Source: a virus
Virus record (IMG/VR): IMGVR_UViG_3300042905_002332
Location: 1 to 28,250 of that record
Length of the DNA stretch: 28,250 nucleotides
Reading direction: 5' to 3' (one strand)
The position numbers were made by a program, and so were the translations under genes. Under the pieces are notes generated by a model. It worked only from the letters and a program-made list of their open reading frames with translations. It was not told the DNA's origin and did not search any database. Within the stretch, counting starts at the first letter, position 1; each line of letters begins with the position of its first letter. Positions 3,008-8,779 of the stretch are shown in pieces.

Positions 3008-3667
3008 TCAGTAGGCCGGAATCAGAATATCCGCCACCGCCTGGGTTAGCTTCACATCCTGGATGCAGTAGTCGATGGCTGCCTGGCGGTCGGTATTCCA
3101 AAGCAGACTAAAGTCGGCGCCGGTGCCTGTCTTGTCACCTAGGCCCAAGTGCCGGCTGATTGCACCAAGGCTTCCGTGCGCCCGGCTGTCTCCAAGCTGC
3201 CACACCTCGCGCAGGTCGATCACCAGATCGTTCCAGTAGCGTCCCTGGCGCAGCCAGTAGGGAGGAAGGATGCGGTGCTTCCAGGAGCGCTTGATGAGGA
3301 ACGGTAGATCGAAGGCCTTAATGTTGAATCCGACGAGTTTAGGCTGCCGCTCGTAGTATTTTACCAACTCCCACCATTCCAGGAGCATGGCGGCCTCGTT
3401 GCCGTCGTTCTTCAGCACCGCGGTCACCTGGTGCTCGATGCGGTATCCGATGCACAGGATCTGCCCCGAGAGAGCGTCCAAGGCTGCGTTCTTGATGAAG
3501 TCCGCGGTGTGGTTCTCCTCGGCCTTCTGAATGCGCTCAGCGATCAGGTCGGGATTCTTGACGTTGCCCAACTTCACGTCGGCCGGGTTGAACGGAGGGA
3601 TGTTGAGTTCCGACAGTGGTAGTGGCCCGGTCTCGATGTCGAAGATGATTGTTGGGTTTGCTGGCAT
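3008..3667 (-). CDS. DEDDy 3'-5' exonuclease (PolB-exonuclease-like)
   Basis: A 219-residue stand-alone 3'-5' exonuclease of the DnaQ/RNase H-like superfamily. All three Exo motifs are visible: IIFDIETGPLP with D10 and E12; LVGFNIKAFDLPFLI with D120; and AAIDYCIQDVKLT with Y200 and D204, the YxxxD signature of the DEDDy subgroup. Length and order resemble the predicted PolB-like exonucleases of phages and bacteria. Next to helicase, SSB-like and RecE/RecT genes it probably removes 3' ends or proofreads during phage DNA synthesis or recombination; no polymerase is visible in the window. Start ATG 3667. The gap 3668-3767 upstream shows two copies of GATGCGCG but nothing assignable. Confidence 0.9.
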   Translation of the reverse strand: MPANPTIIFDIETGPLPLSELNIPPFNPADVKLGNVKNPDLIAERIQKAEENHTADFIKNAALDALSGQILCIGYRIEHQVTAVLKNDGNEAAMLLEWWELVKYYERQPKLVGFNIKAFDLPFLIKRSWKHRILPPYWLRQGRYWNDLVIDLREVWQLGDSRAHGSLGAISRHLGLGDKTGTGADFSLLWNTDRQAAIDYCIQDVKLTQAVADILIPAY

Positions 3668-3767
3668 ATTGCTAAATTGCTTTCAGTTAGTAGTTGATGC
3701 GCGTTTGTCCCGATGCGCGCCCCCGGTTACCCACGAGTCCCAGCAGCAACAGGCTGCCGGAAAGTTG

Positions 3768-4163
3768 TCAGATGTGTTTGCCGCAATGAGGGCAGACGGT
3801 CTTGGTCAACGGCTGTCTTACGGTGGGCACGCCCAGCCATTCGCAGATTTCACGGTAGGATACCCACCCAAACCCACGCACCGACCTAGGCTGCAGGTGC
3901 CCTAGGTTGTAGAGGTCGAGAGCCTCCTGGCGGCTCTTGATGGCTAGGCTTTCGAGGATGTTGAACGTCCTGGTCGAGAACGGGAATCCCCACACCCGCA
4001 GGATCTCCTCGTGCTTCTGTGCTGCCTGTTCAATCTGGTTGATCCGCTGGCGGCTGAGGTTAAACCGTTTGCCGATCTCCTCCAGGGTGCAGCCCTCCGA
4101 CCGTAGTCGGACCACCTCGGGCACCATGTGGATCAGCTTCATCGTGGGTTTGCGTGTCTTCAT
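3768..4163 (-). CDS. sigma-region-4-like HTH fused to an RNAP alpha-CTD-like domain
   Basis: A 131-residue protein with three recognisable parts. Residues 17-48 (GCTLEEIGKRFNLSRQRINQ then IEQAA) read as a sigma-70 region 4.2 helix-turn-helix. Residues 63-112 (STRTFNILESLAIKSRQEAL, then LQPRSVRGFGWVSYREICEW) follow the helix-hairpin-helix pattern of the C-terminal domain of the RNA polymerase alpha subunit (RTxNxLexxxIxsxxE..., RgfGxxSyxEI). Residues 124-127 (CPHC) form half a zinc knuckle at the C-terminus. No sigma region 2 is present, so it is not a complete sigma factor. It starts 3 bases after the SSB-like gene stop. A promoter-binding regulator of phage transcription is plausible but inferred. 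Confidence 0.78.
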   Translation of the reverse strand: MKTRKPTMKLIHMVPEVVRLRSEGCTLEEIGKRFNLSRQRINQIEQAAQKHEEILRVWGFPFSTRTFNILESLAIKSRQEALDLYNLGHLQPRSVRGFGWVSYREICEWLGVPTVRQPLTKTVCPHCGKHI

Positions 4164-4166
4164 GGC

Positions 4167-4907
4167 TTAGAAAGGCACGTCGTCAAAATCGGGCTCGTCG
4201 GCCTTAGCCAGCTCCTCAAGGCGCTTGGTAACCGCGGCAATGAGTGCGATGTCGTCAGGCGTCTTTCCGCTGGAGACCTTAGCCTTGGGCAGCCAGTGCT
4301 CGGCCAGGCCGCGCACAGCGTCAGGCGTTAGCTCGGAAAGCGGGACCCCCCTAAACTTGCCGACGTGCACCTTGATGTCTGCAATCTTAACCGGCGCCGC
4401 GGTAGCCGGCACCACGGTCTTGACCTGGCCATCCTCCCGAGGCGGCCTGTCCTCCAGGCGTACCCACAGGCCCGATGGCTTCAAGGCCTCCCCACTCTTG
4501 TGGGGCATGATCAACTTGATGTTGCTGAACGTCTTGGTGCCGTCCCGAGACTGCTCGTGAACGATCACCACGGTGGCCGGTTTGCCGATCAGGCCGTCGA
4601 GGTTGAGGCTGACGGTCTCCTCGGGGGTGAGTGCTCGGCCGTGCCAGTCCTTGAGGAACTTGGTCAGGCCGGCCTTCTCGTGCAGGCTGGCGGTCATTGG
4701 CGCCGTCATGACCACCCAGGGCTGCACCGGGTTGCGTGACTGGTCCAGGATGTCCAACTCGAATGCGATCTTGAACTTCTGCTTGGTGCCGTACTCCGTC
4801 TCGTAGGCTCGGAGCGGTGTGATGTCGACGCAGACCGCGCGGCCTGTGTACTCGGGGCACGGCGTGAAGGTGCCGCCGCTTGGTTTCGTTGATACTGTGA
4901 TTCCCAT
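4167..4907 (-). CDS. large SSB-like DNA-binding protein with acidic C-terminal tip
   Basis: About 246 residues from ATG 4907; upstream in-frame starts would run through the previous gene. The N-terminal half is beta-rich (GRAVCVDITPLRAYETEYG, KFKIAFELDI, KPATVVIVHEQSRDG), as in phage OB-fold ssDNA-binding proteins. A middle segment (VHVGKFRGVPLSELTPDAVR) resembles the short 'GKYKGxPLxEL' module found in some exonuclease-X-type and phage proteins. The protein ends in DEPDFDDVPF, very like the DFDDDIPF tip by which bacterial SSB recruits replication and repair partners. I infer an ssDNA-coating protein of the phage replisome; the family assignment is not certain. Location beside exonuclease and helicase genes supports this. 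Confidence 0.7.
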   Translation of the reverse strand: MGITVSTKPSGGTFTPCPEYTGRAVCVDITPLRAYETEYGTKQKFKIAFELDILDQSRNPVQPWVVMTAPMTASLHEKAGLTKFLKDWHGRALTPEETVSLNLDGLIGKPATVVIVHEQSRDGTKTFSNIKLIMPHKSGEALKPSGLWVRLEDRPPREDGQVKTVVPATAAPVKIADIKVHVGKFRGVPLSELTPDAVRGLAEHWLPKAKVSSGKTPDDIALIAAVTKRLEELAKADEPDFDDVPF

Positions 4908-8341: not shown

Positions 8342-8779
8342 TCAGAACGGCTTCGGATCAAGATCGTCGCCATCGACCTCGGCAATCGGAACCTCGCGCA
8401 TGTTCTTGATGCGGAGCGTCTTCTTCGTCTCGCCGTTGACCATATACTCCTCAAAGCGAGCGGTGATGAGCAGTTCCAAGCCGGTCATTGACTTCAGGAA
8501 CGCCGCGTAGCTGCCCTTGACCCCAAGGAAGTCGTACTCGGTTCCATCGGGAACATTGTGTTTCGTTGCGGCGACAAGCTGATTGACGCGGAACCAGACA
8601 TTCTCCTGATTGATGAAGCGGTCAGTGATGGATGCGCCATCTTCAGTCTTGAACGTAACCTTACAGACCTCGCGGCCCTTCGCATCGAGCGTTTCCTCGA
8701 CCTTGGCTACGGTGACGGTGTAGTCGCCTTCGGCATCGATGTATCGGCCTCCGGCATCTCGGCGGTTTACTTGGAACAT
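8342..8779 (-). CDS. small SSB-like (OB-fold type) protein
   Basis: 145 residues, start ATG 8779. Beta-rich throughout: GDYTVTVAKVEETLDAKGRE, CKVTFKTEDGASITDRFI, TGLELLITARFEEYM and KTLRIKNMREV fit the strand pattern of phage OB-fold ssDNA-binding proteins located next to RecE/RecT genes. The acidic C-terminus DGDDLDPKPF resembles an SSB partner-recruiting tip, though less exactly than the larger protein at 4167-4907. It is immediately downstream of the RecE-like nuclease, so coating ssDNA for annealing is the likely role (inference). Confidence 0.66.
   Translation of the reverse strand: MFQVNRRDAGGRYIDAEGDYTVTVAKVEETLDAKGREVCKVTFKTEDGASITDRFINQENVWFRVNQLVAATKHNVPDGTEYDFLGVKGSYAAFLKSMTGLELLITARFEEYMVNGETKKTLRIKNMREVPIAEVDGDDLDPKPF

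Follow-up and report, generated by a model that had tools for sequence, protein, structure and literature searches.

The window analysed here is a 28,250-nucleotide stretch of viral DNA (IMG/VR record IMGVR_UViG_3300042905_002332, positions 1 to 28,250), and the gene considered below lies on its minus strand at 3768..4163, with an ATG at 4163 and a stop at 3768. The first-pass annotation had placed a 131-residue phage protein in this interval, and the coordinates proved exact; the coding strand is the minus strand, and the plus strand across 3768-4163 is interrupted by stops. Comparison of five relatives gave dN of ~0.05-0.2 against dS of 0.4-2.3; because dN is well below dS, the sequence behaves as a working gene under purifying selection, a pattern that holds family-wide, and 3768-4163 is a real gene. 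Its product combines an N-terminal helix-turn-helix (HTH) with a C-terminal domain resembling the alpha-CTD of RNA polymerase (RNAP), followed by a short cysteine- and histidine-containing tail.

Genes of DNA metabolism surround this locus, also on the minus strand. Directly upstream lies a gene for a 246-aa single-strand DNA-binding (SSB)-like protein (4167..4907) that ends in DDVPF; such an acidic C-terminal tail is typical of single-strand DNA-binding proteins, and the only family match recovered was a distant one to phrog_862, a family of unknown function. Downstream is a PolB/DnaQ-type 3'-5' exonuclease (3008..3667; PF10108, E 4e-13), whose leader contains a hairpin (3740-3760) and an H-type pseudoknot (3699-3726) that together form a candidate RNA element at 3699..3760, outside the protein gene. 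The minus-strand order is thus a 63-aa gene, the SSB-like gene, the HTH gene and the exonuclease, usually with an HNH gene, a replication initiator and DnaB, and the operon also encodes a RecT-like protein and a PDDEXK nuclease. A further small minus-strand protein (8342-8779), beside a DUF3799 PDDEXK nuclease, carries the acidic C-terminus DDLDPKPF and may be a second SSB-like protein.

Gene order around the HTH gene is kept in nearly all loci fetched by that gene, the SSB-like gene adjoining it in nearly all of them. Since the gene itself had served to retrieve these loci, the view that the operon always contains it was set aside: among loci retrieved through the RNA element, 84 carry the HTH gene between the SSB-like and exonuclease genes and 3 lack it. 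The HTH gene is therefore a common yet dispensable operon insert. In one locus (L050, 2303-7807), which may be misassembled, the HTH and SSB-like genes are on opposite strands and the RNA element occurs twice.

The family comprises hundreds of members in IMG/VR contigs and belongs to freshwater viruses of bacteria. Alignment-based scans of IMG/VR recovered 193 encoding stretches in one case and 248 in another, and a divergent clade adds 32 members. When 50,697 deposited phage records were queried with three diverse members, no homolog was found, the few matches covering the HTH only. In a search of 289 Verrucomicrobiota genomes, the complete architecture turned up on a single 4-kb MAG contig and nowhere else; this contig has phage genes, with neighbours like those in the window, and the other matches were HTH segments, mostly sigma region 4. 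Verrucomicrobiota were considered as the host and not retained, given that a single MAG contig is too weak a basis and the window contains no tRNA.

The N-terminal module is a sigma-region-4.2-like HTH (residues 22-48; 4020..4100, minus strand), in line with the sigma-region-4-like HTH of the first-pass annotation. It matches Sigma70_r4 (PF04545) with an E-value of 1.7e-7 and 31.1 bits against a curated cut-off of 24.1, the same profile was matched in all 22 relatives scanned, and a single-sequence search of the PDB with the 131-aa protein gave sigma region 4 as its top matches. The region is incomplete relative to a full region 4, which has both 4.1 helices: the PF04545 match begins at profile position 18 of 50, and both the alignment with host sigma factors and the predicted structure, which has three N-terminal helices (10-22, 27-34 and 38-58), indicate that region 4 lacks its first helix here. 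A Pfam scan of the 131 residues found no sigma region 2, the part responsible for core binding and melting.

The recognition helix also departs from that of host sigma factors. Primary-type sigma factors in the alignment have R-E-R-[IV]-R-Q at this helix, and host sigma factors show R-E-R or R-A-R, whereas all 51 distinct phage sequences have [RK]-Q-R-[IV]-x-Q, with Q39, R40 and Q43 invariant; the R-E-R-x-R-Q pattern of a -35-reading helix is thus absent from the family, and the equivalent of E585 is Q in 51/51. In structures of sigma bound to the -35 element, the recognition-helix glutamate is among the base-reading residues, and its replacement by Q suggests that the phage HTH probably prefers a sequence other than the host -35 consensus. 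K/R-Q-R motifs of this kind are also present in other HTH proteins, for example a serine recombinase in another locus (L114), so that "sigma-4-like" names a likeness and not a job.

The C-terminal module spans residues about 60-112 (3828..3986, minus strand), with the equivalent of Arg265 at R65. The Pfam alpha-CTD profile PF03118 did not match the window protein on its own, and none of 22 relatives scanned passed its cut-off (best E 0.014), with sub-threshold matches in 10 of the 22; a PHROGs search likewise found no family covering this domain. Comparison of the family C-domain with 29 Verrucomicrobiota alpha-CTDs in hhalign gave P 1.5e-4 and a score of 24.7, at 34-35% identity over 46-47 columns, and a wider family alignment gave P 9e-5. 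None of 300 column shuffles did as well (best 17.2), the reversed alignment scored 8.3, and the N-domain used as a control aligned over 10 columns only. When the whole set of PDB sequences was searched by profile, the alpha-CTD 2max came first (E 0.04).

Structure prediction points in the same direction. When residues 55-114 were modelled by themselves, AlphaFold gave a pLDDT of 86; in a Foldseek comparison of this model with 350,542 PDB chains, ranks 1-6 were all RNAP alpha-CTDs, from several bacteria, and the match to 2max had a probability of 0.97, a TM-score of 0.64 and a deviation of 2.2 Å. The shortness of the domain keeps the Foldseek E-values weak (0.37 and above). The likeness to alpha-CTDs was therefore recovered by four routes in one register, namely sub-threshold Pfam matches, hhalign, Foldseek and the PDB profile search; although no single test is overwhelming, jointly they make chance an unlikely explanation, and residues about 60-112 are alpha-CTD-like. 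The first-pass annotation had named lack of relation between residues 60-112 and the alpha-CTD fold as the outcome that would overturn its reading, and profile comparison, AlphaFold/Foldseek and the PDB profile search all point to the opposite.

Conservation within this domain is uneven with respect to the known contact surfaces of the alpha-CTD. In the alpha-CTD, residues 268-302 contact DNA and an acidic patch around 257-261 contacts sigma. Arg265 of alpha is in addition crucial for UP-element binding (PMC2988021). The Arg265 position is R in 51/51 distinct relatives, the G296 position (G99) is G in 51/51, and the S299 (S102) and E302 (E105) positions are S and E, respectively, in 50/51 each; the N268 position (residue 68) is N in 33/51 and R in 17/51, and the K298 position is K or R in 27/51. 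The acidic sigma-contacting patch, at residues 257-261 in alpha, is absent from the phage family: host E259 and E261 are replaced by G59 and P61, both invariant, within a W-G-x-P motif. Judged from the aligned residues, the DNA-facing surface is retained and the sigma-facing surface is lost, a combination that favours an independent DNA-binder over a mimic of a polymerase subunit, with other contacts possible.

Beyond the alpha-CTD-like domain is the CPHC tail (residues 124-127; 3783..3794, minus strand), a single zinc-knuckle-like motif. The tail noted in the first-pass annotation is real, in that 51 distinct relatives all have C124, H126 and C127; C107, in the last helix, and H89 are invariant in the same number. 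A zinc ribbon has two CxxC knuckles per chain, whereas this protein has one CPHC only, and zinc-ribbon profiles matched the family weakly, under the cut-off. The five invariant residues (H89, C107, C124, H126 and C127) are consistent with zinc binding.

The same two kinds of module are joined in bacterial proteins, so that the fusion is not unprecedented. We sought alpha-CTDs outside rpoA in 59 Verrucomicrobiota genomes and found joins of sigma region 4 and alpha-CTD in 3 of them. Two of these proteins (350-390 aa; L163 1457-2620 in genome G005 and L164 1502-2554 in genome G057) carry an alpha-CTD followed by sigma region 4, with PF03118 and PF04545 both above cut-off; they thus share both modules with the phage protein, but have the alpha-CTD first, are three times longer, possess an extra C-terminal region and a full-length region 4, and are bacterial. 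By eye only, the region beyond sigma region 4 in these two proteins looks HARE-HTH-like. The third (L162 504-1754 in genome G047) is a 417-aa complete sigma factor with regions 1.2, 2, 3 and 4 and a C-terminal alpha-CTD, all above Pfam cut-offs; its order, sigma region 4 then alpha-CTD, is that of the phage protein, which in contrast lacks the remainder of regions 1.2 to 4 and has a CxHC tail that the bacterial protein does not.

NCBIfam contains no named model for alpha-CTD/sigma fusions, neither a named model nor a paper was found for a sigma factor with an alpha-CTD of the third type, and no description of the fusion was found in the open-access literature, which leaves out most subscription papers. 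The first-pass annotation had known of no standard name for the fusion; this holds for the small viral version, which is unnamed and has no known counterpart among cultured phages, whereas the fusion itself has the bacterial precedents just described. Relative to the RNAP alpha-CTD (PF03118; 2max), the phage domain shares the fold, the register and the Arg265-type residues, but has a 3-residue insert before the last helix, has lost the acidic sigma-contacting patch and falls below the Pfam cut-off; unlike the alpha subunit, the phage protein has no N-terminal dimerisation and assembly domain, the HTH standing there instead. Jumbo phages encode minimal single-HTH sigma factors and gp33-type proteins (PMC7824862), which are similarly small and built on a lone sigma-4-like HTH, but for which no alpha-CTD-like domain is described in that work. 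The BREX proteins PglW and BrxL use alpha-CTD-like and sigma-HTH-like domains as DNA-binding modules (PMC12839542) and thus resemble the phage protein in treating these domains as portable, yet they are large defence enzymes with one module each. Whole-chain Foldseek searches of the PDB and BFVD gave no full-length match, the HTH alone being matched; the nearest were ParB/VirB-type DNA-binding cores and other HTH proteins, all weak.

We consider it somewhat probable that the protein is a two-module, DNA-binding transcription regulator of the phage, encoded within its replication operon. The sigma-4.2-like HTH would read a short major-groove sequence of its own, distinct from the host -35 consensus, and the alpha-CTD-like domain would grip the adjoining backbone and minor groove through its Arg265-type surface. 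The CxHC knuckle, present once per chain, might bind zinc, and two copies could share the metal and thereby dimerise. Such a regulator would bind DNA with sequence specificity and, acting on phage promoters, would adjust how strongly or when the replication operon or later phage genes are expressed. A more specific version, in which a single chain recognises a composite signature at promoters, made up of a -35-like word and a neighbouring minor-groove site, and replaces or blocks sigma region 4 and the alpha-CTD at phage promoters, strikes us as improbable. Should the protein bind DNA as predicted, the phage would have packed both promoter-gripping modules of RNAP into about 110 residues, providing a small tool with which to dissect how each module influences promoter choice; the analysis also brings out an abundant, uncharacterised freshwater phage family without cultured relatives.

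Points against a regulator come from BREX, where BrxL and PglW put HTH and alpha-CTD-like domains to non-transcription roles (PMC12839542), from the weakness of the whole-chain structural matches, from the absence of the HTH gene at the equivalent spot in some relatives, which means that it is not obligatory, and from the genomic setting: every neighbouring gene has to do with replication or recombination, so that a role in origin binding or repair is possible. One may postulate a replication or recombination accessory that, bound to the phage origin or to structured DNA, assists in loading the neighbouring DnaB-type helicase, SSB-like protein or exonuclease. This would be in keeping with the position of the gene between the SSB-like and exonuclease genes, with the replication initiator, DnaB, RecT-like protein and PDDEXK nuclease encoded in the same operon, and with the weak ParB/VirB-type structural matches. 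We regard this as unlikely, however, since both modules are of kinds that belong to transcription machinery, the 121 bp adjoining the gene showed no iterated binding sites, and the HTH gene is missing from otherwise similar operons.

The first-pass annotation had suggested redirection of transcription to phage promoters or mimicry of sigma and alpha. Both modules do resemble the promoter-recognition parts of the polymerase, and phages are known to take over both surfaces, as in T4 MotA/AsiA and in ADP-ribosylation of alpha Arg265 (PMC2988021), so that a factor docking on host polymerase, at the beta-flap through its sigma-4-like module or at sigma or activator surfaces through its alpha-CTD-like module, could redirect the enzyme. 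The two-module fusion stands, but the proposed activity is weakened by the invariant G59 and P61 of the W-G-x-P patch in place of host acidic positions 259 and 261, by Q at the E585 equivalent in every sequence and by the absent first helix of region 4; a free-standing DNA-binder therefore fits better, and we hold the docking model to be quite unlikely. That the protein is a generic HTH protein whose C-domain is alpha-CTD-like merely as a short helix-hairpin-helix fold, with no functional relation, would accord with the failure of every member to pass the Pfam cut-off and with Foldseek E-values of 0.37 and above, but is very unlikely given that the matches are specifically to alpha-CTDs and not to the many other helix-hairpin-helix families, at 32-35% identity and with DNA-contact residues in register.

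The RNA element between the HTH and exonuclease genes is a 62-nt conserved structure. Across 44 distinct sequences, pairing holds in 92.7% of cells and 9 of 18 pairs are changed on both sides; the covariation score of 0.28 compares with 0.14 for shuffles and a maximum of 0.11 for slid positions of the structure. Rfam contained no match to the element, and a reading of the pseudoknot as a guanidine-III riboswitch, which had no Rfam support, was discarded. Where the HTH gene is missing the pseudoknot is kept, directly after the SSB-like gene. In T4, the single-strand DNA-binding protein gp32 acts through a pseudoknot to repress its own mRNA (PMC535899), and by analogy the element may possibly be a new structured RNA controlled by the neighbouring SSB-like protein, which makes SSB-type control of the downstream nuclease a testable idea. 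In another phage (L314), a shorter pseudoknot lies upstream of a RuvC-like gene, with an SSB-like gene of 28% identity on its other side.
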